Below are positions 4,862-21,215 of a stretch of 64,000 bases of DNA, one piece after another. The translations under genes and the position numbers were made by a program. Under the pieces are notes generated by a model that saw only the letters and a program-made list of their open reading frames with translations, searched no databases and had not been told where the DNA came from. Origin of the DNA: Streptomyces candidus (GTDB lineage: Bacteria > Actinomycetota > Actinomycetes > Streptomycetales > Streptomycetaceae); NCBI RefSeq assembly GCF_014207445.1, contig NZ_JACHEM010000008.1, positions 186,001 to 250,000 of the forward strand. Reading direction: 5' to 3'. Numbering within the stretch: the stretch's first letter is position 1; each line of letters starts with the position of its first letter.

Positions 4862-6700
4862 CTAGCCGCTCCGTTCGCCGAGCATCACCGAGATCCGGTC
4901 CGGCGACACGGGCCGTGAGTACAGCCAGCCCTGGCCCGTGTCGCAGCCGATGCGCCGCAGCCGCGCCGCCTGGCCGGCCGTCTCCACGCACTCCGCGGTG
5001 ACGGTCAGGCCCAGGCGGTGCGCGAGCTGCACCAGCGCCTCGACGATCGTCTCGTCGGCCGGATTGGGATGCGCCTCGTCCTGGAAGCCCCGTACGAACG
5101 AACCGTCCAGCTTCAGTACGGACACCGGGAGCCGGCTCAGGTAGGCGAGGTTCGAATACCCGGTCCCGAAGTCGTCGATCGCGATGTGCACCCCCATGTC
5201 GCTGAGCGCCTGGAGCGCCTGCAGGGGACGGCCCGCCGAGCCCATCACCGCCGACTCGGTCAGCTCCAGTTGCAGCAGCCCGGGGGCCAGCCCGGTCTCT
5301 TCGAGGATGTCGGCGACGTCGGCCACCAGGTCGGAGTCCCAGACCTGCCGCACCGCCACGTTCACCGATACGAACAGCGGTTCCGCCTGCGGGTGCTGCA
5401 GCTGCCACCGGCGCGCCTGCTCGCAGGCCGTGCGCAGCACCCACCGCCCGAGGTGCACGATGGAGCCGTCCTCCTCCGCGATGCCGATGAACCGATTCGG
5501 CGCGAGCGTCCCGAACTGCGGATGACGCCACCGCACCAGGGCCTCCACCCCGCGCACCAGGCCGCCCTCCAGGTCCACCAACGGCTGGTACTCCAGCACG
5601 AACTCGCCCCGCTCCAGCGCAGGACGCAGCGTCGAGGACAGCGCCTGACGGGTCATCCGGTGGGCGTTGCGCTCCGGGTCGAAGAGGGTCCAGCGGCCCT
5701 TGCCGTCCGCCTTCGCCCAGTACAGCGTGGTGTCGGCGGCCTGCATCAGCCCGGTCGCCGTCGTGCCCGCCGCCGACCGCTCCAGCACGCCGATCGACGC
5801 CGACACGGACAGCCGCTGCCCCGCCAGGTCGAAGGGCTGCTGGAGCGCGGTCAGCACCGTCTGCGCCAGTTCCGTGAGCTGCTCGGTGCCGGTCGAGTCC
5901 TCCACCAGCAGCGCGAACTCGTCACCGCCGAGCCGCGCCACCAGGTGACCGCCGCCCGGCCCGTACCCGCTCTGGTCCGCGCACCGGGTCAGCCGGGTCG
6001 CCACCGCCGCCAGCAGCCGGTCGCCGACGCGGTGGCCCAGCGTGTCGTTGACGGCCTTGAAGCCGTCCAGGTCCAGGTAGCAGAGCCCGATCCGGCCGGT
6101 CCCGCCCCGCTCGTACGTGGAGGTCTCCAGCGCGGCCGACAGCCGCTCGAAGAAGAGCGCCCGGTTGGGCAGCCGGGTCACCGGGTCGTGCATCTGGAGG
6201 TGCCGCAGCCGGGCCTGGAGCTCCCGCCAGTCGCTGATGTCGGCGACGGACAGCAGCACGTTCTCGCTGTCCGCCACGGGGGCCACGGAGACCTCGACCC
6301 ACAGGGCGTGCCCGTCGCGGTGCTTGAGGCGGCGGGTGCAGCGGAAGCGGGTGCGACGACGGTCCAGGACCTCCCGGTACGCGTTCCAGGTACGGGCGTC
6401 GGTGGCCAGGTCCACCAGCTGGGCGGCCTCCGCGCCGGGCAGCTGCGCCGGGTCGGCGCCGAGCAGCGTGCCGAGCGCGGTGTTCGCGGCGATCACGGTG
6501 CCGCCCGGGGTGACCAGCGCCATCGGGAGGGCGCCCGCGTGGAAGGCGGCCCGGTAGTCGCGGGCGTCCGCGCCCTCGCAGGTGCGCAGCTCCGCGGGGA
6601 GGGGACCCCCGGGATGACGCTGCGTGATGAACGCCGGAAGGCGAGGCGCGGCTGGGACGTCGTCGGTGCCTGAACCGGACTCTTCGGGGATTCCGCTCAC
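4862..6700 (-). CDS. cdgA: PAS–GGDEF–EAL bifunctional c-di-GMP enzyme
   Basis: A 612-residue composite protein: a PAS-like sensor with PAC-like tail (about 50–170), GGDEF diguanylate cyclase (about 175–340) and EAL phosphodiesterase (about 350–610). The cyclase motif LGGDEFALLV is intact. EAL residues are present (VEALVRWRHP, ELTESAV, DDFGTGYSNLAYL, LKLDGSF, QGWLYSRPV), so both activities are possible. The inhibitory RxxD (RCAD) is there, but about 10 extra Gly-rich residues (QSGYGPGGGH) separate it from the GGDEF loop. No membrane segments, so cytoplasmic. The GTG start at 6700 has GGGAG 6 bases upstream. Domain order and neighbourhood match Streptomyces CdgA, a BldD-regulon enzyme controlling development (family knowledge). 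Confidence 0.88.
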   Translation of the reverse strand: MSGIPEESGSGTDDVPAAPRLPAFITQRHPGGPLPAELRTCEGADARDYRAAFHAGALPMALVTPGGTVIAANTALGTLLGADPAQLPGAEAAQLVDLATDARTWNAYREVLDRRRTRFRCTRRLKHRDGHALWVEVSVAPVADSENVLLSVADISDWRELQARLRHLQMHDPVTRLPNRALFFERLSAALETSTYERGGTGRIGLCYLDLDGFKAVNDTLGHRVGDRLLAAVATRLTRCADQSGYGPGGGHLVARLGGDEFALLVEDSTGTEQLTELAQTVLTALQQPFDLAGQRLSVSASIGVLERSAAGTTATGLMQAADTTLYWAKADGKGRWTLFDPERNAHRMTRQALSSTLRPALERGEFVLEYQPLVDLEGGLVRGVEALVRWRHPQFGTLAPNRFIGIAEEDGSIVHLGRWVLRTACEQARRWQLQHPQAEPLFVSVNVAVRQVWDSDLVADVADILEETGLAPGLLQLELTESAVMGSAGRPLQALQALSDMGVHIAIDDFGTGYSNLAYLSRLPVSVLKLDGSFVRGFQDEAHPNPADETIVEALVQLAHRLGLTVTAECVETAGQAARLRRIGCDTGQGWLYSRPVSPDRISVMLGERSG

Positions 6701-9406: not shown

Positions 9407-9748
9407 CTACTTCGGGGGCTGGCTGCGCAGCAGGTCCCGCCCGAAGTCGACCATCTTCTTCGCGTAGTCCTCGGTCCACGCCGCCCGCTCCGCGATGTCC
9501 GCAGCCGTCAGCCGGTCGAACCGCTTCGGATCCGCGAGCTGGGCCGCCGCGAGGGCCTGGAACTCCACCGCCCGGTCCGTCGCCGCCCGGAAGGCCAGCG
9601 TCAGATCGGTGGCCCGGGACAGCAGCTCCCGCGGGTCCTCGATCTTCTCCAGGTCGAAGAAGTGCTCGTCGTCGGCGGCCGCCTCGGCGGGCTCGAAAAG
9701 CAGCGGTGCGGGGCGCAGCCGCCGCTCGGGCCGCTCGGTCTCCGCCAT
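9407..9748 (-). CDS. Conserved hypothetical protein, helical, 113 aa
   Basis: The ATG at 9748 is preceded by GGGAGGAAAC with good spacing; a longer upstream version is not needed. The protein is acidic then amphipathic, with blocks FFDLEKIEDPRELLSRATDL and RAAWTEDYAKKMVDFGRDLL, predicted mainly helical and soluble. It lies 117 bases downstream of the SF1 helicase gene on the same strand and could be the last gene of that unit. I do not recognise its family. Confidence 0.75.
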   Translation of the reverse strand: MAETERPERRLRPAPLLFEPAEAAADDEHFFDLEKIEDPRELLSRATDLTLAFRAATDRAVEFQALAAAQLADPKRFDRLTAADIAERAAWTEDYAKKMVDFGRDLLRSQPPK

Positions 9749-9865
9749 GTGTTTCCTCCCTTTCACGGCCCCCGGGGGACAGGCGGCCACCCTCCATTGT
9801 CCGGGTGCGCGCAAGTGGGCATCCGGGCCTGCCCGGCGCCCGCGCCCACCCGGCGCGCCCCGTGG

Positions 9866-11224
9866 TCACCGTCCCGGTACCCACCGCACCCGGTGTTCCG
9901 CCAGGTGTGCCAGCACCGAGTGATTGGCCTCCCACCCGTCCGGGAACTTCACCGTCACGCCCAGCTGCACCGGTTCCGTCGAGGGGTGTTCGTCGAGGAG
10001 GCCGGTGACGCCTTCCCGGCAGATGACGATGCACGCGTGCCGGTGGCGGGAGGCCAGGACGCAGAGGCGGCCGGTCTCCAGGTGGAAGGCGGTCGCGTCG
10101 GGGCGGCCGGAGAGCGGGTGCAGGACGACCGTGACGTCGAACTCGCGGCCCTGGAGCCGGTTCGCGGTGTCCACCGCGACGCCCGTCACCCCCAGCGCGG
10201 CCAGCGCCGCCCGGACCGCCGCCGCCTGGTCGCGGTGCGCGGTGCCCACCGCGACGCGGTCGGCGGTCAGCGGCGTGGGGTCGGGGGAACGCTCGCTGAG
10301 CGCGGCGCCTCCCCGGTCGAGCAGGCGCCGGACGACCTGGGCGAGCGCTCCTACCGCCTCCGGATCGGTACGGGGGGTGTGCCGGGCGGGCAGTTCGAGC
10401 AGTCCCCAGCCGCTCTCCGCGGCCTCGTCGATGACGCGGTCGGGGGCCGAACCGGAGGAGGGGACGCCGAAGGACAGCCGCCGGTCCTCCGGGCCCGTAC
10501 CGCTGCGGAAGGGCGTGTACGGGTAGAACGCGTCGGAGACCAGCGGCGCCGCCGACGCCGGGAGCCGCCACGACACGGGCAGCCGGTGCTGGGGCAGCTG
10601 CGGGTTGTGGGCCAGGAGCGTGGAGACGGCACTCGCGGAAGGGTCGTACGACAGTCCCGCCCACTGGTCCGCGCCGACGATCGAGAACGGGTCGAGCTGG
10701 CCGGGGTCGCCCACGAAGAGCGCCTGCTCGAAGAGGCTCGCCACGGCCAGCAGCGAGTCCGAGCGCATCTGGTACGCCTCGTCGACGATCGCGTGCCGCC
10801 ACGGTTCGACGCCCTTGACGTGCGCCCACTTCGCGGCGGTGGACAGGACGACGTCGATCCCCGCCAGGTCGGCGGCCTTCGCGGACTTCCTGACCTGCGG
10901 GAGGTCGTCCAGGGCCTTGTCGTACGGATCGGACTCGGAGCTGTGCAGGCGGCCGACGGGCAGGTCCGGCTGCTTCTCCGCGAGCCGTAGGACGAGGTCG
11001 TCCACCTGGGCGTTGGTCTGCGCGACGACCATCAACGGACGTCCTGCGGAAGCGAGTTCGAGCGCGGCCCGTACGACGAGGGTGGACTTGCCCGCGCCGG
11101 GCGGTGAGTCGACGACGACTCCGCGGTGCGTGCCGTGCAGGGTGTCGTGCAGGATCCCGGCGGTGGCGCGGGCGGCTTCGGCGCCGGGATCGAACCCCGG
11201 GCGGTCGGCGGGCGGACGGGTCAC
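9866..11224 (-). CDS. SF1 (Upf1/Dna2-like) DNA/RNA helicase
   Basis: A 452-residue compact helicase. Walker A is SPPGAGKST (Gly43–Thr48), Walker B HAIVDEAYQM, motif III FVGDPGQLDPF, and the C-terminal RecA half shows VDTANRLQGREFDVTVVLHP and a LCVLASRHRHACIVI motif VI region, an order typical of SF1B enzymes of the Upf1/Dna2 type. It has no accessory domains. The GTG at 11224 has CGAGGA upstream. It follows the 535-residue unknown (166-base gap) and the Cas4-like nuclease on the same strand. Predicted role: unwinding in concert with the nuclease (inference). Confidence 0.85.
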   Translation of the reverse strand: MTRPPADRPGFDPGAEAARATAGILHDTLHGTHRGVVVDSPPGAGKSTLVVRAALELASAGRPLMVVAQTNAQVDDLVLRLAEKQPDLPVGRLHSSESDPYDKALDDLPQVRKSAKAADLAGIDVVLSTAAKWAHVKGVEPWRHAIVDEAYQMRSDSLLAVASLFEQALFVGDPGQLDPFSIVGADQWAGLSYDPSASAVSTLLAHNPQLPQHRLPVSWRLPASAAPLVSDAFYPYTPFRSGTGPEDRRLSFGVPSSGSAPDRVIDEAAESGWGLLELPARHTPRTDPEAVGALAQVVRRLLDRGGAALSERSPDPTPLTADRVAVGTAHRDQAAAVRAALAALGVTGVAVDTANRLQGREFDVTVVLHPLSGRPDATAFHLETGRLCVLASRHRHACIVICREGVTGLLDEHPSTEPVQLGVTVKFPDGWEANHSVLAHLAEHRVRWVPGR

Positions 11225-11390
11225 GTGCGGTCCTCGGGGGAGTACGGGTGCGGGCGGGGCGGCGGCGGGGGCACGGTGGACGGACGGGACACGAGTGGTC
11301 GCCGGGGGCGTACGGGCACGGCGGCGCGACGCGAGGACGGGGTCTCCCGCAGTGCTGGGCGCGGTACCGGTGCGGGGGTGCGGCGTCCGG

Positions 11391-12998
11391 TCACAGGAGG
11401 TCGTCGGGGGTGATCGGGTCCGGGCGTTCGTGTGCGTCGTCGCCGTCCACGGCCGGGGGGCCGCCGTGGGTCCACGGGGTGTCCTCGGGGTCGGGGAGTT
11501 TTGCCCCGCCGCGCTGTTCGTGGGGGAAGAGGGTCCAGCAGATGCGGTCGCCCACCTCGGGGACGGTGCCGGGCGCGGGATCCTTGGCGCGGCCCATCGC
11601 GTTGAGCAGGCGCAGCGTGAGCACGCCCGCCGCCTCCCACCGCACGAACTCGGCGCTCTGCGACCCGCCGTCCAGCGAGCGGTACACCTTGACCTGCTCG
11701 TCGCCCCCGCCGAGCTGCGGCAGATCGGCGGTGCGCACGGTCACCAGGGGGCGGGGGGTTGGTCGCTTGGTCTCCGTCCAGGCCGGCTCGACACCGGTCA
11801 CCTCGCTCGTGAACGCCTCGCCGGTCAGCCTGCGGGCCGCCATCACCAGCGGGTCGTCCAGCGCTTCCTGGGCTTCGAGCCGGGCCTGCTCCGTCTCCCG
11901 GGAGGCGAGCTTCTGGGCGGCGCCGACCGCGCTGTCGCGGCGCGGCTGCGGAGGCTCGCCCGCCCGTACGCGGTCCCGGTGGCCGGTGTACGACCAGCGG
12001 TCCCGGGTCCAGCGCTCGGCGGCCCGCGGCCCCTCGGGCAGGGCGCGCACCAGGTCCAGGGCGCGCCAGGTGGCGTGCCAGGCGGGCAGGAGCTGGGCGG
12101 ACAGCAGGTCGCGGACGTGCCGCTCGGCGGCGGCGAGTTCCCCGAGCCGGGCGTCGGCGCTCCCGCCGTCCTCGGCGCCGGCGAAATTCTTGCGGGCCAG
12201 GTCGTACGCGTCGATGGCCGGGGCGAGGAGCGCGTTGTCGAAGGCGGGATCGGTGGCCGGGCCCGCGGGCGGGCACAGCAGCTGGCCCCGCGCGTCCCGT
12301 CCGGTCTCGGCGCGCCGCGCGGCCTCGGCCCCGCTCTCGCCCTCCGGCGGATCGATCCAGGCGAGCAGGGCGCCCAGGTGCAGGTCTTCGAGGCTGCTCT
12401 GACCGGTCGCCCAGTGCCGGGAGAGAAGGTCGGTGGCGCACAGGAGGAGGGCGGCGCCGGGAGTGCGGACGCGTTCGCCGTAGTGGGTGAGCCAGCGGCC
12501 GAGCAGCGGAATGTGCGGCGGCGCCGGGTACGGGGCGTCGGGGTCCTGCTCGGCCGTGCGGCGGAAGCGCATGGAGCGGCCGAGCAGGCGTACGTAGTCG
12601 ATGCCGGAACGGCTGGGGACGATCAACTGGGGTGCGTCGCGGCACAGTTCGACCTCGACCTTGACGCGCTTGCCGGTCTCCGGGTCGGTCTCGTTGCGTT
12701 CCGCGGGCTCGGTGTCGTCGGCGTACGAGTCCAGGTGGGGCAGGACGGTCTCGGCGAGGTCGGCGAGGAAGGCGAACCGGAGGTCGCGGTCGCGGGGCTG
12801 GGGGACGACCAGGAGGCGGGGAGCCTCGCGGTCCGTCCCGACGAGCGCGCCCAGCGGCGCGCCGGCCTCACCGGCGGTGGTGAGCGGCACGAGCACCAGC
12901 GGGCGGTCGGAGAGGTGGCGGTGGCGAGTGGTGGCGAGGGGCTGGGCATGTCCGGACCGGGTGGCTTCCAGCCGGGCGAGGGTGTTGATGAGCGACAT
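11391..12998 (-). CDS. Conserved protein of unknown function between nuclease and helicase
   Basis: A 535-residue protein starting MSLINTLARLEATRSGHAQP, with no signal peptide, membrane segment or motif I recognise. Visible features: a β-rich N-terminus (PLVLVPLTTAGEAGAPLGAL), an Ala/Glu/Arg-rich, probably coiled-coil middle (about 250–370), and a C-terminal part with TKRPTPRPLVTVRTADLPQL and GDRICWTLFPHEQ. The C-terminal tail is acidic and Pro-rich. It sits 66 bases after the nuclease gene and before the helicase gene, so it is probably a subunit or adaptor of that complex (inference). Confidence 0.8.
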   Translation of the reverse strand: MSLINTLARLEATRSGHAQPLATTRHRHLSDRPLVLVPLTTAGEAGAPLGALVGTDREAPRLLVVPQPRDRDLRFAFLADLAETVLPHLDSYADDTEPAERNETDPETGKRVKVEVELCRDAPQLIVPSRSGIDYVRLLGRSMRFRRTAEQDPDAPYPAPPHIPLLGRWLTHYGERVRTPGAALLLCATDLLSRHWATGQSSLEDLHLGALLAWIDPPEGESGAEAARRAETGRDARGQLLCPPAGPATDPAFDNALLAPAIDAYDLARKNFAGAEDGGSADARLGELAAAERHVRDLLSAQLLPAWHATWRALDLVRALPEGPRAAERWTRDRWSYTGHRDRVRAGEPPQPRRDSAVGAAQKLASRETEQARLEAQEALDDPLVMAARRLTGEAFTSEVTGVEPAWTETKRPTPRPLVTVRTADLPQLGGGDEQVKVYRSLDGGSQSAEFVRWEAAGVLTLRLLNAMGRAKDPAPGTVPEVGDRICWTLFPHEQRGGAKLPDPEDTPWTHGGPPAVDGDDAHERPDPITPDDLL

Positions 12999-13063
12999 GG
13001 GGGTCCGGGTGCCTTTCGGGCGGGGCGTGCACGGAGAGGGTGTACGGGCCGGTGGCCGCCTTC

Positions 13064-14203
13064 CTACCCGCCGCCCCGCGCGGCCAGCGCCTCGGCCCGC
13101 AGCGCCGCAGCCCTCCGCAGTGCCGCGACCGCAGGGTCGGCGGGGTCGCCCGCCCGCCCGTGCGCCGCGTCGAGCACCTCCGCGACCGTGCTCAGGCCGC
13201 CCAGTTCGCCCCGGACACTGCGGCCGAGCGCCTCGACGGCGCCCGCCTCGCGCGCCCTCCCCCGGCAGTGGAAGGCCAGTTCACAGGCGGCCAGGCACTC
13301 CGGCGCGTACGCCGCGCCGACCGCCTCGACCGACGCCAGCAGCTCCTCGGTGCTGCCCGACGGGTCGAACGACGTCCCCCCGGGCAGCGCGGCGGCCAGT
13401 TCCTCCACCCGCCGCATCCGCGCCAACTGCCTGCGCGTAACCGACAGTTGCTTGCGCACGTCCACCACCGAACCCGTCGGCAGGTTCGAGAAGTCCTTCG
13501 GGCACACCAGCAGCACATGGTGGCCGACCTCCGCGCCCGGTACCCGCGCCGCGACCCGCTCCAGCGCCAGCACGTACACCGCCGCCTGCCGGGCCGCCGC
13601 CCCCACCTTCGCGGGGTCGGCCGAACCGTCCAGCATCGGGAAGGACTTGATCTCGACGACCGTCCAGTGCCCGTCCGGGTGCACCACCACCGCGTCGGGC
13701 TCCAGGTAGGCGGGAGTGCCCGCCACCTCCAGGGCCAGCATCGGGTGGTCCAGCAGCGTCCACGCCTTCGCCGTCGTCGCCTCGCGCAGCGCCAGGGCCG
13801 TGCGCGCCGTGCGCCCCTCGGGTCCGGCCGCCGACACATCCGGGGTCAGCGCCGCCTCCGGGTCCGCTACGCCCAGCAGGCGCAGCAGCTCCGTACCCCC
13901 GTCGGACTTCACCCGGGCCTCGAAGGCGTTGCCGCGCATGAACGCGAACTGGGACTGGCCGTACGGGGCGGGGGAGCCGAGCGCCGCCGCCAGCGCCGCC
14001 TTGTCCACGCCCGCCCCGTCCAGCAGGGTCCGCCGCTCGCACCCCGGGTTGGCCGCCAGCGCCGCCAGCGCGCGGGCGTCCAGCGGGTGCGGCGGGCGCG
14101 TCGGGCCGCGCAGCTCGGCGAGCCGCTGCCGGACCGGAACACCGGCGTCGGCACGTGCGGTCGGGGGCGTGGGGTCGGGTCCGCTGCCCAGGGATGCGTT
14201 CAC
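13064..14203 (-). CDS. Cas4/AddB-like PD-(D/E)XK nuclease with predicted Fe–S cluster
   Basis: A protein of about 379 residues. RecB-family nuclease motifs occur in order: RGNAFEARV (Glu95), YLEPDAVVV (Asp170), TVVEIKSF (Glu184-x-Lys186) and RQAAVYVLA (Gln206-xxx-Tyr210). One cysteine precedes the core (Cys55, NPGCERRTL) and three follow it in CLAACELAFHC (Cys303, 307, 313), the layout of the 4Fe–4S cluster in Cas4, AddB and Dna2. It should cut DNA, probably single-stranded ends. Start uncertain: GTG 14203, or an in-frame GTG slightly upstream (about 14230 or 14242). First gene of the run towards the helicase; no CRISPR array or other cas gene is nearby. Confidence 0.82.
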   Translation of the reverse strand: MNASLGSGPDPTPPTARADAGVPVRQRLAELRGPTRPPHPLDARALAALAANPGCERRTLLDGAGVDKAALAAALGSPAPYGQSQFAFMRGNAFEARVKSDGGTELLRLLGVADPEAALTPDVSAAGPEGRTARTALALREATTAKAWTLLDHPMLALEVAGTPAYLEPDAVVVHPDGHWTVVEIKSFPMLDGSADPAKVGAAARQAAVYVLALERVAARVPGAEVGHHVLLVCPKDFSNLPTGSVVDVRKQLSVTRRQLARMRRVEELAAALPGGTSFDPSGSTEELLASVEAVGAAYAPECLAACELAFHCRGRAREAGAVEALGRSVRGELGGLSTVAEVLDAAHGRAGDPADPAVAALRRAAALRAEALAARGGG

Positions 14204-14347
14204 CCTCGGAAGTCTCGCATCCGCCACTGACAACACCCCCGTCACCGCTCTTTCGGCCGGTGGGTGATGATGGAAAGCGGTCCGGTCCCATTCCGGGCCC
14301 AACGCCCCATATGCACATCACAGCCCAGCTCCCAGGGAGAGAACGCC

Positions 14348-14950
14348 ATGGCACCCCGCATCCTGCTGGCGCGGCACGGTCAGACGGAGTGGTCGCTGTC
14401 CGGCAGGCACACCGGCCGGACGGACATCCCGCTGCTCGACGAGGGCCGGCACGGCGCGAAGGTGCTCGGCGAGCGACTGCACCGCGCCCCGTGGAACGGC
14501 CTGCCCGGCGTCGAGGTCCGCTCCAGCCCGCTGCGCCGCGCCCGCGAGACCTGCGACCTGGCCGGTTTCGGCGACCGCGCCCGGAACTGGGACGCCCTCA
14601 TGGAGTGGGACTACGGCGCGTACGAGGGGCTGAAGCCGGACGAGATCCACGCGCAGGAGCCCGGCTGGATGGTCTGGCGCAACGGAGCCCGCGACGGCGA
14701 GACCCTCGCGGACGTCACCGCCCGCGTCGACGAGGTCGTCGAGTGGGTCCGCTCCGAGGACCGCGACGTGCTCGTCTTCGCGCACGGCCACATCCTGCGT
14801 TCGCTGGGCGCCCGCTGGCTGGGCCTGGACATCGGCTTCGGCGCCCACCTCCGGCTCGACCCGACCTCGCTGTCGGTCCTGGGCTGGGCGTACGGCGAGC
14901 CCGCCGTCGAGCGCTGGAACGACACCGGCCACCTGGACGCCCGGCCGTAA
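14348..14950 (+). CDS. Histidine phosphatase family protein (phosphoglycerate mutase-like)
   Basis: A 200-residue protein with the phosphohistidine motif [21 protein letters not shown] at its N-terminus, the Glu region EWDYGAYEG and a second His in [17 protein letters not shown]. It belongs to branch 1 of the family (cofactor-dependent mutases and broad phosphatases); its substrate is not predictable. The ATG at 14348 has AGGGAGAG upstream. It is divergent from the nuclease gene (144-base gap) and convergent with the TPR regulator. Confidence 0.9.
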
Positions 14951-14956
14951 CGGCGC

Positions 14957-16387
14957 TCAGCGCCGCCGCACCGTGTTCGCGTGCCGCGCCAGGAACGCGC
15001 CGACCTCCGGTGAGCGCCGGTGCGGCAGCAGGGTGCGGATCGTCCCGGCGAGCATCGTGTGGATCCGCGACGACTGGACCTGTTCGAGCAGGTCCAGTAC
15101 CCGCTGGCCGGCCGCCGCCGCCTCGTCCGGCACGCCGGAGCGGGCCAGGTCGTCCGCCAGTTCGGCGTGGTAGAGCGCCAGGTTGCGGGCGAAGTGCGGG
15201 TCCTGGAGGGAGGCGGCGCGGTGCGCGTACCGGACGGCCCGCCGCCAGTCCCCCAGCGCCGACCAGCACTGCGCCTCCAGCCCGGCGATCTCGGCGGGCC
15301 CGAAGAAGGACATCCACTCCGGGTCGTCGTCGCACGCCCCGCACTGGAACAGGGACTTGGCCCGAACGAGCGCCTCGCTGCAGCCCGTGCGGTCGCCCAG
15401 CGCCGCCCAGCCGCCCGCCTCCCGCAGGGTCAGCAGCGACATCAGCCGCATGGACCCCAGCCCCCGGGCCGCCCGCTGCCCCGCCTGCGCCGCACGCAGC
15501 GCCTCGCGCGGCCGGCCCGCGTCCCTGGCCAGGAACGCCGTGTTGCAGAAGGCGTGCGCCTCCAGCCCCGCGTCTGCGGAGACCCGGGCGGTGGCCAGCG
15601 CCTCCGCGTAGTGCGAGCGGGCCTCCTCGTAGTGGCCCGAGTCGTGTGCCAGCCAGCCCACCGACAGGGCGAGTTCGCCGGCCCCCGAGTGCAGCCGGTC
15701 GGACACCGCGCGGCGCACCGTCCCGGCGTCGAGCAGGGCGTACGCGGCCTGGAGCGGCTTGTCGGCGTGCCGGTGCAGGGCGTCGGCGCCGTACCGGTCG
15801 TCGAGCAGCCGGATCCGCCGTACGGCTTCCTCGACCGCGGCGGCCTCGCTCGCCCCGACGCGCCCGACGGGGGCGCCGCCGGGCAGGACGGGCGTGCTCG
15901 CCCAGGCGGCGCCCAGCGGGCCGAGCGCCCCCAGGGTGCCGAGAGTGGCAGCGGTCGCCATGGTGGCGGAGCCGCTCGTCATGAACGCGCGACGCAGCAC
16001 GTCGCTCTCCTCGTCGCTGTGGGACATGGTTCGATCGGGCGCACCGCACGCGGCGGGAGCGGGCGTACCGAGGTGCGGTGCGGGCGCGTCGGCACCGGTG
16101 CGCGCCGACCGTCCCCGTACCGCCTCGCGGGTGGCGAACCCCAGGTCCGGCAGGGACCGGCCGGGGAACATGTGCAGGAACACCCGTTCGTAGGCGTAGT
16201 TGGGGCAGCGGATCTCGCCCGCCTCCACCCGTCCGATGTACCGGGCGTCGCAGGCGACCTGCTCACCGATCTCGCGCGCCGCCCTGCGCACCGCCGCCGC
16301 GAACTCCCCCGGTGAGCGGTGCCCCCGCAACGCCCGGAAGGCGAGGTTCGGGCCGGACGGCCGGAATGCAGCTGATGACGACGCCAT
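14957..16387 (-). CDS. TPR-type regulator with N-terminal HTH-like domain (NsdA-like)
   Basis: A 476-residue protein: an N-terminal HTH-like segment (AAREIGEQVACDARYIGRVEAG and following, about 20–75), a low-complexity linker, then Ala/Leu-rich helical repeats resembling TPRs to the C-terminus. An Ala/Gly-rich stretch near 160–190 (FMTSGSATMATAATLGTLGA) looks like a buried remnant of a signal or linker. The build is that of Streptomyces NsdA-type negative regulators of antibiotic production and sporulation (family knowledge); which genes it controls is not visible. The ATG at 16387 was preferred to a longer form because GAGAGGG lies upstream and the homologous HTH region follows directly. Confidence 0.78.
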   Translation of the reverse strand: MASSSAAFRPSGPNLAFRALRGHRSPGEFAAAVRRAAREIGEQVACDARYIGRVEAGEIRCPNYAYERVFLHMFPGRSLPDLGFATREAVRGRSARTGADAPAPHLGTPAPAACGAPDRTMSHSDEESDVLRRAFMTSGSATMATAATLGTLGALGPLGAAWASTPVLPGGAPVGRVGASEAAAVEEAVRRIRLLDDRYGADALHRHADKPLQAAYALLDAGTVRRAVSDRLHSGAGELALSVGWLAHDSGHYEEARSHYAEALATARVSADAGLEAHAFCNTAFLARDAGRPREALRAAQAGQRAARGLGSMRLMSLLTLREAGGWAALGDRTGCSEALVRAKSLFQCGACDDDPEWMSFFGPAEIAGLEAQCWSALGDWRRAVRYAHRAASLQDPHFARNLALYHAELADDLARSGVPDEAAAAGQRVLDLLEQVQSSRIHTMLAGTIRTLLPHRRSPEVGAFLARHANTVRRR

Positions 16388-16662
16388 GGCCGAGCCCTCT
16401 CTGGCGGGTGGTGCTGTCGTGCCCGTGGTTCCCGCCGGGACGGATGTTCTCACCCCGGACGGGCACGAAACGTACCGGCTGTAACGGGGCCGACACGCGG
16501 AGTTTGCCTACAAAACGGAAATCCCACCCGCGATCCGCCATGAACTGCCATCCTTTGCGGCGGTGTGCAGCCGTAGCCGATGACGGCGTCCGCGCGTTGA
16601 CAGGGAACGGAGGGGGTGCGGCCCTCTCCCGAGCGAGGAGCGTTCCCTTGTTGGAGGCCGGC

Positions 16663-17403
16663 ATGGAGACCGTGGAAGCTGTTCCCGGGACCGCAGTGAC
16701 CTGCGCAGCCCACGAGTCCGCAGCACGCACGACGCCCGTCCCCCCGTCGGCCCCGGCCGCGTGTCCCGTCCGCGCCGCCTCGCACACGACGGCCCAGCAC
16801 CGGCCGACCCCCGAGTGCAGCCCGGCCCCCCGGTTCAGGTCCGCCCACGAGCCCGCCGCCGCTCCCGCCGCGTCGGCGCCCGTCTCCGCCGCGCACGCCG
16901 ACCCGGCGCACGCCCTCCCCTGGGGCCCGGTCGCCGGGGGGTCCGCCGAACCGCTCGACCTCGTCACCGTCCCCGCCCGCCAGGGCCTGGAGGCGGTGGA
17001 CATCCTGCGCCGGGCGGCCGCCGGAGCCGCCGGGTCCGGGACGCCGGGAGCGCCCCCGGCCGGCGTCGGCCCGGTCCTGCACGACGGCCCGTGCGACACC
17101 CTGGGCTTCCTGGTTCCGCCCGGCACCGCCGACTGCTGGGACCTGCCGGGCAGCGCCTGTACGCAGACGCTGGGGCGCGGAACGAGTTTCGCGGCCGACG
17201 CCCCGGACCTGCCCGAGTACGACCCGGTCACCACCCTGCCCTCCCGGGAGACCGCGGCCCGCGTCGTGCCGCAACCGCCCGTCACCGGCACCGGCTGGCT
17301 GCTGCCGCCCACCGACACCGGCCCGGTCACCGACCCGGCGATACTGCGCCGGGCCCTCGATCAGGCGGCCCGCCTGATCGAAGCGGCGGACCGCTGCCGC
17401 TGA
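16663..17403 (+). CDS. Primase/polymerase-fold-like Streptomyces protein, second copy
   Basis: A 246-residue protein from the ATG at 16663 (GGAGG 5 bases upstream). The first 75 residues are Ala/Pro/Ser-rich and disordered. The remainder has LDLVTVPARQGLEAVDILRR, GVGPVLHDGPCDTLGFLVPPG, and a C-terminal GTGWLLPPTDTGPVTDPAIL. The FD/LD-V-x-x-PA, GPV and W-x-x-PP pattern matches the genes at 8682 and 30314. No catalytic carboxylates are obvious. Divergent from the TPR regulator, it is followed 81 bases later by the spermidine-synthase-like gene. Function unknown. Confidence 0.7.
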   Translation: METVEAVPGTAVTCAAHESAARTTPVPPSAPAACPVRAASHTTAQHRPTPECSPAPRFRSAHEPAAAPAASAPVSAAHADPAHALPWGPVAGGSAEPLDLVTVPARQGLEAVDILRRAAAGAAGSGTPGAPPAGVGPVLHDGPCDTLGFLVPPGTADCWDLPGSACTQTLGRGTSFAADAPDLPEYDPVTTLPSRETAARVVPQPPVTGTGWLLPPTDTGPVTDPAILRRALDQAARLIEAADRCR

Positions 17404-17484
17404 ACCGGCCCCCCGCCCGGCTCCCCGTCGCGCCGGCCCCGGCCCCGCTGGGCCGGCCCGGCCGCACGGCCCGATACTGGCCAG

Positions 17485-18396
17485 GTGGCGAAGAAATCCC
17501 GGACGGCGACCTCAGAGACAGCGGCCAGAAGCACCAGCGGCCGGCGGCGCGAGCGAAGCGCGGCCCCCGAGGCCGTCGTGGAGAAGGTCGACGGCGGGCT
17601 CGCCGAGCTGATTCCCGACCGGGACCGCCCGCGCGGCTGGACCCTCCTCCTCGACGGCGCACCCCAGTCGCACGTCGACCTGGACGACCCCGCACACCTC
17701 GACTTCGCGTACCAGCGCAGGCTCGGCCACATCGTCGACCTGATCGCCCCGCCCAAGCAGCCGCTCCAGGTGCTGCACCTGGGCGGCGGCGCGTTCACGA
17801 TGGCTCGGTACGTCGCCGCCACCCGCCCCCGCTCCACCCAGCAGGTCGTCGAGATCGACGTCGCGCTCGCCCAACTGGTGCGCCGGGAGCTTCCGCTGGA
17901 CCCCGGCGCGCGGATACGGGTGCGCGGCGTGGACGCCCGTGAAGGGCTCGCGAAACTGCCCGGGGAGTGGGCCGACCTGGTGATCGCCGACGTGTTCAGC
18001 GGTGCCAGGACCCCGGCCCACCTCACCAGCGCCGAGTTCCTCGCCGACGTACGGCGGGTGCTGAAGCCGGCCGGGCACTACGCGGCCAACCTGGCCGACG
18101 GGCCGCCGCTCGCGCACCTGCGGGGGCAGATCGCCACGGCCGCCGCCGTCTTCCCGCACCTCGCGCTCGCCGCCGATCCGGCCGTACTGCGCGGCAAGCG
18201 CTTCGGGAACGCCGTCCTGCTCGGATCGCGGGCGGCCCTGCCGGTCGCCGAGTGGACCCGGCGGGTGGCGACCGACCCGCACCCGGGCCGGGTCGAGCAC
18301 GGGCGCGACCTGGCGGACTTCACCGGGGGCGCGGCGGCGGTGACGGACGCGCACGCGCAGCCCTCGCCGGTTCCCCCGGCCGCCGTGTTCAAGTGA
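17485..18396 (+). CDS. Spermidine synthase-fold SAM-binding protein
   Basis: A 303-residue Rossmann-fold protein. Motif I is VLHLGGGAFTMARYVA near residue 95, the acidic loop is QQVVEIDVALAQLVRR, and ADLVIADVFSGARTPAHLTS holds the Asp of the catalytic region. Such stand-alone homologues are usually annotated as spermidine synthase or fused-MFS spermidine synthases; no membrane part is present here. The N-terminal 30 residues are basic and probably disordered. Whether it makes polyamines is not certain; it could be another aminopropyl- or methyltransferase. GTG start at 17485. Confidence 0.8.
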   Translation: MAKKSRTATSETAARSTSGRRRERSAAPEAVVEKVDGGLAELIPDRDRPRGWTLLLDGAPQSHVDLDDPAHLDFAYQRRLGHIVDLIAPPKQPLQVLHLGGGAFTMARYVAATRPRSTQQVVEIDVALAQLVRRELPLDPGARIRVRGVDAREGLAKLPGEWADLVIADVFSGARTPAHLTSAEFLADVRRVLKPAGHYAANLADGPPLAHLRGQIATAAAVFPHLALAADPAVLRGKRFGNAVLLGSRAALPVAEWTRRVATDPHPGRVEHGRDLADFTGGAAAVTDAHAQPSPVPPAAVFK

Positions 18397-18410
18397 GTCC
18401 CGGCGCGGCG

Positions 18411-18434
18411 GAGCCGGGCCCGGCCGTCCGGCTC
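18411..18434. terminator. Hairpin between convergent genes
   Basis: GAGCCGG (18411–18417) and CCGGCTC (18428–18434) form a short perfect stem between two convergent stop codons, with a GC-rich loop that can extend it. No T-tract. Confidence 0.45.
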
Positions 18435-18984
18435 AGGTCTTGACGGTCTCGACCAGCGGCGGGTGGTTGTGCCAGGTGCAGAAGACCGTCAGCTTCTTGG
18501 CCGCGCCGCCCGAGAACTCGACGCGGATCCACGACGGGTCCTTCCACACCTGCATCGCCCAGCCGGAGGCGGGCGTCGCCGACACCAGCTTCGCCGAGTC
18601 CTTCCCCAGCGAGAGGACGACTCGGCCCGCGTCCGTGTTGACCACCTTGAGCTCGCCGGGCGGCTGCGGGGGCCGGGCCGGGGTACGGGAGACGGCGGAG
18701 GCCGAGGGCCTGCCGGGGCTGCTCGTGCCGCGTTCCGGTTCCCGTTCCGGCGTGGGGGCGCGGGCGGGCGTCGGGGCCTGCGGGGGACGGTGGGTCGAGG
18801 AGGACATCGGGCGGGCCGACGGGGCGGGGCCGGCGCTCGCGCCGCTCACGTGCGGGATCGGCAGGGCGCGCGGCGGGTCGTACACCGTCCCGGACATCAC
18901 CGTGTGCACGCCCCACCACGAGAGGGTGACGGCCGCGCCGGTGGCCAGCAGCCACGCCCCGGCATGTATGAGTCCTCGTCGCAT
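18433..18984 (-). CDS. Membrane-anchored Pro-rich protein of unknown function
   Basis: A 183-residue protein: short basic N-terminus (MRRGLIHAGAWLLATGAAV), one membrane or signal segment (about 6–30), a Pro/Thr/Ser/Glu-rich spacer (about 45–110) and a C-terminal globular domain (about 112–183) ending TVFCTWHNHPPLVETVKT. The spacer suggests the C-terminal domain stands off the membrane in the cell wall space. Transcribed away from a two-component system whose regulator starts 112 bases off; it could be a target or sensor accessory (inference). Family not recognised. Confidence 0.75.
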   Translation of the reverse strand: MRRGLIHAGAWLLATGAAVTLSWWGVHTVMSGTVYDPPRALPIPHVSGASAGPAPSARPMSSSTHRPPQAPTPARAPTPEREPERGTSSPGRPSASAVSRTPARPPQPPGELKVVNTDAGRVVLSLGKDSAKLVSATPASGWAMQVWKDPSWIRVEFSGGAAKKLTVFCTWHNHPPLVETVKT

Positions 18985-19095
18985 TCATGTCATCCTGCCC
19001 CACGCGCGTCGCGGCCGTTCCGGGGGGCTGCCGGGGAGGCCGGAGGGCGGTCCCCGCGGGATGGGGATGCGCCGAATGGCGTACGGTGCCGTTCC

Positions 19096-19791
19096 ATGGC
19101 AAGTGTGCTCGTGGTCGAGGACGACCAGTTCGTACGCTCCGCCCTCATCCGGCACCTGACCGAGGCCTCCCACACCGTGCGGAGCGTCGGTACGGCCCTG
19201 GAGGCGTTGCGCGAGGTCGCCCATTTCCGCTTCGACGTGGTCATCCTGGACCTCGGTCTGCCCGACCTGGACGGGGCCGAAGCGCTCAAGATGCTGCGCT
19301 CGATCACCGACGTACCGGTGATCATCGCCACTGCCCGGGACGACGAGGCGGAGATCGTACGGCTGTTGAACGACGGCGCCGACGACTACCTGACGAAACC
19401 CTTCTCGGTGGAGCACCTGTCGGCCCGGATGGCCGCCGTCCTGCGCCGCTCGCGCGCCGCGGGGGCGGAGCCGCCCCCGCGCGTCCTGCGGGTCGGCGCC
19501 CTGGCCATCGACCCGCTGCGGCGCCAGGCCGAGCTGGACGGGAAGCGGCTGGACCTGACCCGGCGGGAGTTCGACCTGCTGGCCTTCCTCGCGGGACGGC
19601 CCGGTGTGGTGGTCCCGCGCAAGGAACTCCTCGCCGAGGTCTGGCAGCAGAGCTACGGCGACGACCAGACCATCGACGTGCATCTGTCCTGGCTCCGCCG
19701 CAAACTGGGCGAGACCGCCGCCCGTCCCCGCTACCTGCACACCCTGCGGGGTGTCGGGGTGAAGCTCGAACCTCCGGGGCCGCAGCAATGA
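19096..19791 (+). CDS. OmpR/PhoB-family response regulator
   Basis: A 231-residue regulator. The receiver domain (1–115) shows the acidic pocket VVEDDQF, the phosphorylation Asp in VVILDLGLPDLDG and Lys in DYLTKPFS. The winged-helix DNA-binding domain (about 130–225) ends in RRKLGETAARPRYLHTLRGVGVKL. The ATG at 19096 follows directly after a promoter-sized gap from the divergent membrane protein gene. The stop overlaps the ATG of the kinase gene by four bases (ATGA), so the two are co-translated. Confidence 0.93.
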   Translation: MASVLVVEDDQFVRSALIRHLTEASHTVRSVGTALEALREVAHFRFDVVILDLGLPDLDGAEALKMLRSITDVPVIIATARDDEAEIVRLLNDGADDYLTKPFSVEHLSARMAAVLRRSRAAGAEPPPRVLRVGALAIDPLRRQAELDGKRLDLTRREFDLLAFLAGRPGVVVPRKELLAEVWQQSYGDDQTIDVHLSWLRRKLGETAARPRYLHTLRGVGVKLEPPGPQQ

Positions 19792-21215
19792 GATGGGCCC
19801 TGGTCAAGGTCTGTCTGGCCGTCACGGCGATGGTCGTGGTGGCGTTCGCGGTGCCGCTCGGGCTGGTCATACGGGAGATGGCCGGCGACCGCGCCTTCTC
19901 GGGCGCGGAACGGCAGGCGGCGTCCATCGGACCCACGCTGTCCATCACCACCGACCGCGAACAGCTCCTGCGCGCGATGGCGATCACCGAGCCGGGCAGC
20001 AAGGGGTGGATGGCCATCCACATCCCGGGCACCGGCGGACAGGACGCCCAGGAGGTCGGCACCCGACGGGCCTCGCGCGCGGACGTGGAGGCCACCCGGC
20101 GGATCGGCCGCGCCTACACCGCGCAGGCGGCCGGCGGTTCCGTGATCCTCCAGCCCACCGCCCTGGGCAGCGGAGCCATCGCCATCGTCGAGGTCTTCGT
20201 CCCCGAGGAGGACGTCAGCAACGGCGTCGCGACGGCCTGGCTGGTGCTGGCGGGGGTCGGCCTGGCGCTGATCGTCGGATCCGTCGCGGTGGCCGACCGG
20301 CTGGGCGTACGGATGGTCCAGCCCGCCCAGCGGCTGGCGGGAGCCGCGCAGGACCTGGGGGACGGGAAGCTCGGGGTGCGGGTCGCCGAGGAGGGTCCGC
20401 CGGAGCTGAAGTCCGCGGCCGTCGCCTTCAACTCGATGGCCGACCAGGTCGTCCAACTGCTCGCCAACGAGAGGGAGCTGGCCGCGGACCTCTCCCACCG
20501 GCTGCGCACCCCGCTGACCGTGCTGCGGCTCAACGCCGCCTCGCTGGGGGAGGGGCCCGCCGCCGACCAGACCCGGGCGGCGGTCGAACAGCTGGAGCGC
20601 GAGGTCGACACCATCATCCGGACGGCGCGGGAGCAGCGCCCGCAGACCCAGCCGGCCACCGGGGCGGGCTGCGACGCGTCGGAGGTCATCCGGGAACGGA
20701 TGGAGTTCTGGTCGGCGCTCGCCGAGGACGAGGGGCGGGAGGTACGGCTCGCCGGAGTGGACCGGCCGGTCCGGATCCCGGTCGCGCGGCCCGAACTGGC
20801 GGCTGCTCTGGACGCGTTGCTGGGGAACGTCTTCCGGCACACCCCGGAGGGCACGCCCTTCTCCGTGGACGTGCACAACGGCGAGGACGCGGTGATCGTC
20901 CTCGTCTCCGACGCGGGTCCGGGCATCGCGGACCCGGAGGCGGCGATGGCACGCGGCAACAGTGGTGAGCGGACCGGCTCGACGGGGCTCGGCCTGGACA
21001 TCGTGCGGCGCGTCGCGGAGTCGACGGGCGGCGACGTGCGGATCGGCTACTCGGTGCTCGGCGGCACGGAGGTCCGGATCTGGCTGGCGCTGCACGGCGC
21101 TGGACGCTGGGAACGCCGCGGCCACCGGGTCGTACGCCGCCGCAAGGGCCGGCGGGACGCGGTCGCCCCCGGCGGCCCCCCGCGGCACCGGACCGCCCCG
21201 GGGGGCCCGGCCTGA
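19788..21215 (+). CDS. Sensor histidine kinase of the adjacent response regulator
   Basis: A 475-residue kinase: membrane segment 1 (about 5–25), an extracytoplasmic loop of about 125 residues, membrane segment 2 (about 150–170, WLVLAGVGLALIVGSVAV), HAMP, HisKA with the phospho-His in ELAADLSHRLRTPLTVLR, and HATPase with N box LLGNVFRHTPEG, G1 DAGPGI and G2 GSTGLGLDIVRRVAES. The C-terminal 40 residues are Arg/Pro-rich. Its signal is unknown. Confidence 0.92.
   Translation: MRWALVKVCLAVTAMVVVAFAVPLGLVIREMAGDRAFSGAERQAASIGPTLSITTDREQLLRAMAITEPGSKGWMAIHIPGTGGQDAQEVGTRRASRADVEATRRIGRAYTAQAAGGSVILQPTALGSGAIAIVEVFVPEEDVSNGVATAWLVLAGVGLALIVGSVAVADRLGVRMVQPAQRLAGAAQDLGDGKLGVRVAEEGPPELKSAAVAFNSMADQVVQLLANERELAADLSHRLRTPLTVLRLNAASLGEGPAADQTRAAVEQLEREVDTIIRTAREQRPQTQPATGAGCDASEVIRERMEFWSALAEDEGREVRLAGVDRPVRIPVARPELAAALDALLGNVFRHTPEGTPFSVDVHNGEDAVIVLVSDAGPGIADPEAAMARGNSGERTGSTGLGLDIVRRVAESTGGDVRIGYSVLGGTEVRIWLALHGAGRWERRGHRVVRRRKGRRDAVAPGGPPRHRTAPGGPA

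Follow-up and report, generated by a model that had tools for sequence, protein, structure and literature searches.

The window examined here is a 64,000-nt stretch of the Streptomyces candidus genome (contig NZ_JACHEM010000008.1, positions 186,001 to 250,000 of the forward strand; genome size 7.4 Mb), containing a candidate split Dna2-like helicase-nuclease at a locus syntenic with named Streptomyces. The minus strand carries, in order, a nuclease gene (nuc, 13064..14233), a gene for a 535-amino-acid (aa) orphan protein (unk, 11391..12998), a helicase gene (hel, 9866..11224), a gene for a small protein, a further short gene, and one for tRNA-Lys; a phosphoglycerate-mutase-like gene is divergent from nuc. 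The gap between nuc and unk is 65 bp. A previous reading made from the window alone (the sequence-only reading) had described four open reading frames here, and all four were found on the minus strand where it had placed them. The start of nuc is probably TTG 14233, giving a protein of ~389 aa, because the consensus of its relatives, MSVxDARLPRV (MSVxxARLPRV), matches there; this start is preferred over the GTG 14203 chosen earlier, and lies 10 codons upstream of it. Residue numbers for nuc are nevertheless counted from GTG 14203.

The product of nuc is predicted to be a Cas4/RecB-type PD-(D/E)XK nuclease, with four conserved cysteines and a predicted iron-sulfur (4Fe-4S) cluster. All of the RecB/Cas4 motif residues listed in the sequence-only reading are present (C55, E95, D170, E184-x-K186, Q206-xxx-Y210, and C303/C307/C313). 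In an alignment of more than 60 copies, none lacks any of the four cysteines in the 1+3 layout that this reading had pointed out, and most retain all the catalytic residues. The last three cysteines are spaced C-x3-C-x5-C, as against C-x2-C-x5-C in a fused actinobacterial relative. The Pfam match, to PDDEXK_1, is weak and below cut-off (E 0.014). The structure model has a mean predicted local distance difference test (pLDDT) score of 73, and its top PDB matches include Cas4 SSO0001, RecE, EXO5, MGME1, and ACE1, with the first match alone passing E 0.001. In fold and cysteine layout, nuc is like Cas4, solo-Cas4, and the Argonaute-associated Cas4 (ACE1), but it differs from them in its constant neighbors unk and hel, its C-x3-C-x5-C spacing, and the absence of recognized cas genes; PADLOC gave no Cas match for any of the four window proteins. 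A lone copy in another family (L152) has an altered nuclease site (E95T, E184A, Q206E) and no recognized defense partner in the stretch read.

The predicted product of hel is a superfamily 1 (SF1) helicase core of the UPF1/DNA2-like type, with domains 1A and 2A. Pfam AAA_11 and AAA_12 both match above cut-off, and the closest solved structures are IGHMBP2 and DNA2; these results agree with the earlier assignment of an SF1B-like helicase two genes on from the nuclease. Its SF1 motifs (Walker A SPPGAGKST near residue 40, DEAYQ, GDPGQLDP, SWRLP, QGRE, and SRHR) are near-perfectly conserved across copies. The PLuB helicase family NF040671 was considered as a parent family and rejected, the match being far under cut-off and explained by generic helicase similarity alone. 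In the DNA2 structure, the nuclease is followed by a beta barrel on a two-helix stalk and then by a motor of ~450 residues; barrel and stalk are common to UPF1-type helicases (PMC4716839). About 33 residues of hel come before the point aligning with IGHMBP2 residue 207 and DNA2 residue 645, and the motors of those two proteins are preceded by ~200 and ~640 residues respectively, barrel and stalk included. Because these ~33 residues are all that precedes the motor, the barrel and stalk are missing from hel.

Searches of Pfam, NCBIfam, PADLOC, and PHROGs found nothing that matches the orphan protein, and none of its PDB matches is significant; a similarity to NucC was rejected (E 0.2). The sequence-only reading had left it unassigned, and the searches likewise yielded no family and no unrelated role for it. 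Its structure model (mean pLDDT 68.6) has an N-terminal alpha/beta part (~30–245), long helices (251–392), and a beta barrel (395–490), with scores mostly above 80 for helices 251–320 and mostly 70–84 over the barrel region (391–490). For the barrel, the matches were weak: barrels of F1-ATPase and flavin reductase, at E >0.03 despite probabilities of up to 1.0. Since hel is without barrel and stalk, and the unk model consists of helices and then a barrel in its second half, unk is probably, to judge by the models, the missing middle of a split Dna2, its C-terminal half being the piece absent from hel.

With few exceptions, the copies read have the order nuc-unk-hel, in Streptomyces as in several further families of Actinomycetes. 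Among same-genus genomes, unk was found in 37 of 37 in a first sample and 39 of 40 in a second; the single Streptomyces genome without it (G285), which is complete, also lacks nuc and hel. Identity of hel within Streptomyces is 83–92%. Outside the genus, unk is present in 31 of 355 sampled Actinomycetes genomes and the three-gene unit in 15 of 137 sampled Actinomycetes genera, while in 296 genomes sampled across the phylum there was no match outside the class. Outside the core Streptomyces set, most copies have a 4-bp overlap between nuc and unk. One Streptomyces copy (L201) is a natural fusion, with a single frame of 933 aa covering unk and hel. In genus g65 (L156, L157), hel lies 36–49 kb from nuc-unk on the same strand, yet has been retained (E ~1e-213). 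Gene order is conserved in Streptomyces and other Actinomycetes far beyond chance, and not just in this strain; and co-function, previously argued from gene order, now also draws on the unk-hel fusion, the joint absence in G285, and the retention of hel where it has moved. An origin as a phage module was rejected: phage and viral collections yielded no relative of unk, no nuclease match in phages, and one trivial helicase fragment.

In divergent copies of the module there is a fourth gene, c3, immediately upstream of nuc (255–330 aa, no family, and no PADLOC or PHROGs match). It was found in 28 of 344 same-genus Streptomyces genomes, a 29th match being marginal, and ~20 kb were read around each copy. 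Fourteen of the 28 adjoin a divergently transcribed SbcD-SbcC pair; 11 adjoin a pPIWI-RE nuclease and a DinG-type helicase; and three adjoin neither, among them L196, whose neighbor is a DUF4011 helicase. Other families also have copies linked to SbcCD (L105, L106, L111, L155, L163). Wadjet loci of all three types are found beside the module: type I in L167, L183, L184, L187, and L189, with a DUF3375 fragment in L105; type II in L106, L109, L110, L155, L163, L188, and L190; and type III in L111, L194, and L197. Two Streptomyces plasmids have the full array, SbcC-SbcD | c3-nuc-unk-hel-JetA-JetB-JetC-JetD, and in most type I and II cases JetA begins ~120–265 bp after hel on the same strand. The possibility of a defense complex, raised in the sequence-only reading, fits the island copies with their SbcCD, Wadjet, or pPIWI-RE neighbors; for the window copy it may or may not hold. 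Replacement of JetD by nuc in Wadjet was also considered and is not supported: among loci whose Jet genes could be read to the end, which in some others was not reached, JetD is present in L167/L179, L106/L174, L163/L176, L183, L184, and L189.

Several SbcCD-linked copies (L186, L189, L203, L204, L167) are within 25 kb of linear chromosome ends, some of them in both terminal repeats. After SbcC in L202 (1622–3987), and likewise in L201, L203, and L204, there is a Mu-transposase-like protein (Mu-transpos_C, rve) with an AAA ATPase; this pair resembles Tn7/Tn5053-type transposition and could explain island movement. A subgroup of SbcCD-linked copies (L166, L167, L168) has a DEAD-box helicase with helicase-associated (HA) domains right after hel, and L108 has an HKD/SNF2 helicase (PADLOC C3a139-like) and a type III restriction-modification pair downstream of hel (12235–19901). 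Among copies that have c3, SbcCD, and Wadjet type II, the one from another family in L163/L176, where JetD2 is present, is the most divergent; it is arranged with SbcD-SbcC-JetA-JetB-JetC-JetD diverging from c3-nuc-unk-hel.

When nuc, unk, and hel are concatenated, the resulting tree places the core Streptomyces copies, Catenulispora-like (f3) and Streptosporangiaceae-like (f19) lineages, and others in mostly separate clades (apart from Streptomyces and Nonomuraea, the family names are inferred here). SbcCD-linked copies with different Wadjet types are intermixed in the same tree, and those linked to pPIWI-RE form one clade. Pairwise DNA alignments show a shared block running from the SbcC stop to within ~80 bp of the hel stop, whereas the adjacent Wadjet is of different types or missing. 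The type I-linked L187 and the type II-linked L110, for example, are 98% identical over their shared part, which begins inside SbcD, SbcCD being cut short in L110. Because the ends of the block are fixed while the neighboring Wadjet type varies, the ~9.6-kb unit of SbcCD and c3-nuc-unk-hel behaves as a module in these alignments.

The state of the nuclease site follows the partner. None of the 23 SbcCD-linked copies, and none of the core copies examined, has a change at E95, D170, E184, K186, Q206, or Y210; the site is lost in all 11 pPIWI-RE-linked copies, every one of which keeps the four cysteines. Eight of the 11 have H, L, and R at positions 95, 184, and 186, and three have Q, R, and S at positions 170, 186, and 210. 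L196, which belongs to the second of these subclades but has no pPIWI-RE in the stretch read, shares the changes of the three-copy group (170, 186, 210). The pPIWI-RE system brings a PD-(D/E)XK nuclease of its own (PMC3702460). From the counts obtained here and a genome of 8.5 Mb, the chance of meeting pPIWI-RE in a random 20-kb stretch is estimated at ~4 in 10,000, although the clustering of defense genes inflates counts of this kind; for this reason the argument leans more on the constant ends of the block, the exchange of partners, and the pattern seen at the active site.

The explanation favored here, with reasonable though far from full confidence, is that nuc, unk, and hel are subunits of a split Dna2-like helicase-nuclease whose mobile form serves anti-invader islands. 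Its basis is the composition, order, and conservation of the genes, their fusion and joint absence, the partner loci, and the active-site state as read in the sequences; from these we infer complex formation, barrel homology, polarity, substrates, and function. In such a complex, hel would supply the two RecA-like motor domains alone, and unk would add stalk, beta barrel, and an extra N-terminal part, bridging the motor to the nuclease. The nuclease, with an Fe-S-stapled RecB/Cas4 fold, would cut single-stranded DNA fed to it by motor and unk, as in DNA2 and Bad, so that the complex would resect or degrade DNA ends, flaps, or single-strand/double-strand junctions. The mobile, c3-containing form would be the processing part of anti-plasmid or anti-invader islands. 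SbcCD opens hairpins and protein-blocked ends, and Wadjet cleaves plasmids; in their company the module might destroy DNA that Wadjet has opened, and alongside pPIWI-RE its motor and scaffold might be used with cutting left to the pPIWI-RE nuclease. A more specific version, that the mobile six-gene set SbcC-SbcD-c3-nuc-unk-hel is an interchangeable DNA-processing part for Wadjet I, II, and III and (minus SbcCD and with its nuclease switched off) for pPIWI-RE, and that Streptomyces has fixed a c3-less form as a core chromosomal machine, is put at somewhat short of an even chance. The window copy is the chromosomal, vertically inherited, c3-less form, and probably acts in DNA-end processing or constitutive defense.

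Several results weigh against this explanation. The unk model is of moderate quality and has no Foldseek match passing E 0.001, so homology of its barrel to that of UPF1 and DNA2 is a proposal; nor does its profile show similarity to the middle of fused actinobacterial RecB-helicases, of which it was considered as a homolog. The window genome has no match to c3, JetA1, or pPIWI_RE_Z, and the window copy has no defense neighbors. Loss of the nuclease site is not fully independent from copy to copy, the pPIWI-RE-linked copies forming one clade with K186R in common, and its first step may have been shared. Finally, most Streptomyces Wadjet type I and pPIWI-RE loci are without the module, which is thus optional there: pPIWI_RE_Z is found at 64 places in 62 of the 344 genomes, 11 beside the module and 53 with no module nearby, and JetA type I at 13 places in 12 genomes, with three places (two genomes) beside the module.

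The alternative that survives best, and may be entertained tentatively, is a housekeeping DNA repair or replication machine (for end resection, or flap or hairpin processing) that became fixed in Streptomyces, the island copies being secondary recruits. This would fit the core copies, with their presence in 39 of 40 Streptomyces, high hel identity, fixed synteny, and lack of defense neighbors, and most copies in other families, which also have no recognized defense context; it sits less well with the one complete Streptomyces genome that has none of the three genes, and with a scattered distribution across the class that implies the module is not essential. There is also no LexA-like box upstream of nuc, and the frequency of such boxes is no higher than chance, on which grounds SOS control of the module was rejected. 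It seems unlikely that the module is a stand-alone defense system of nuclease, helicase, and sensor for which Wadjet, SbcCD, and pPIWI-RE are merely island co-residents. The extra copies in defense islands, on plasmids, and near chromosome ends would be expected of such a system, as would the three c3 copies with neither partner in the stretch read, including the one by a DUF4011 helicase; but the SbcCD-linked blocks have sharp common ends with JetA soon after hel in most type I and II cases, nuclease state tracks the partner, and near-universal vertical inheritance of the core form is unusual for defense. It is equally improbable that unk is a separate sensor or DNA-binding protein that shares the operon without being part of the helicase, given its natural fusion to hel, their joint absence and co-retention, and the lack in hel of just the region that its predicted C-terminal half resembles, even though the searches found no helicase domain homologous to it and its large N-terminal part has no match.

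As a putative split Dna2-like enzyme, the module shares with DNA2 and Bad a four-cysteine RecB-type nuclease, a large middle, and an SF1B UPF1-like helicase, in that order. Those are single chains, however, whereas here there are three proteins, with nuclease and helicase separate in all copies and unk fused to hel once; and known Bad proteins are sporadic, whereas the split module is nearly universal in Streptomyces. The sequence-only reading's proposal that the activities of Dna2 have been divided among separate genes is supported by the order conserved beyond this strain, the invariant cysteines, and the lack of an unrelated role for unk. For the fused protein Bad of Geobacillus stearothermophilus, a central domain that is conserved but uncharacterized in structure and function is reported, along with a neighboring type III methyltransferase (PMC7430649). 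With the unk family, the DNA2 barrel and stalk, and the uncharacterized middle of the bacterial DNA2-like enzymes, could be studied in a protein of their own. The TM0106-family RecB-like nuclease, or bifunctional RecB nuclease-helicase (e.g., L218), likewise combines a RecB nuclease with a cysteine cluster and a UPF1-like helicase, and is actinobacterial, but it is a single chain whose middle is unrelated and is not matched by the unk profile.

Island copies adjoin complete or partial Wadjet (JetABCD) loci of types I, II, and III, but nuc, unk, hel, and c3 match no PADLOC Wadjet (Jet) component. Similarly, 11 copies adjoin the pPIWI-RE nuclease and DinG helicase of three-gene pPIWI-RE islands, but the passages of PMC3702460 consulted on those islands do not describe the module. 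No description of Wadjet with SbcCD, pPIWI-RE, or this gene set was found in the open literature, most subscription papers and preprints being outside the search. The mobile cousins of the window copy lie next to known anti-plasmid defense systems, which points to a new component for DNA processing that several immune systems of bacteria have in common. A resection-like set beside all three Wadjet types bears on what finishes Wadjet-cut DNA, and the pPIWI-RE-linked copies, with fold and cysteines kept and active site lost, are a natural separation of motor and scaffold from cutting. The linear chromosomes of Streptomyces have ends that must be handled with care, and a near-universal but unannotated machine in this genus becomes a defined target.

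The small helical protein downstream of hel (9407..9814, minus strand, 135 aa) was judged to be outside the module. The sequence-only reading had listed it after the other three genes; it is kept at the Streptomyces site and absent from divergent module copies, so it belongs to the site instead. Within a few kb of the module, a GGDEF-EAL protein is encoded at 4862–6700 of the window. Another is found close downstream of nuc-unk in genus g65 (L156, 5070–7346; L157, 6749–9082), possibly through old synteny or by chance.

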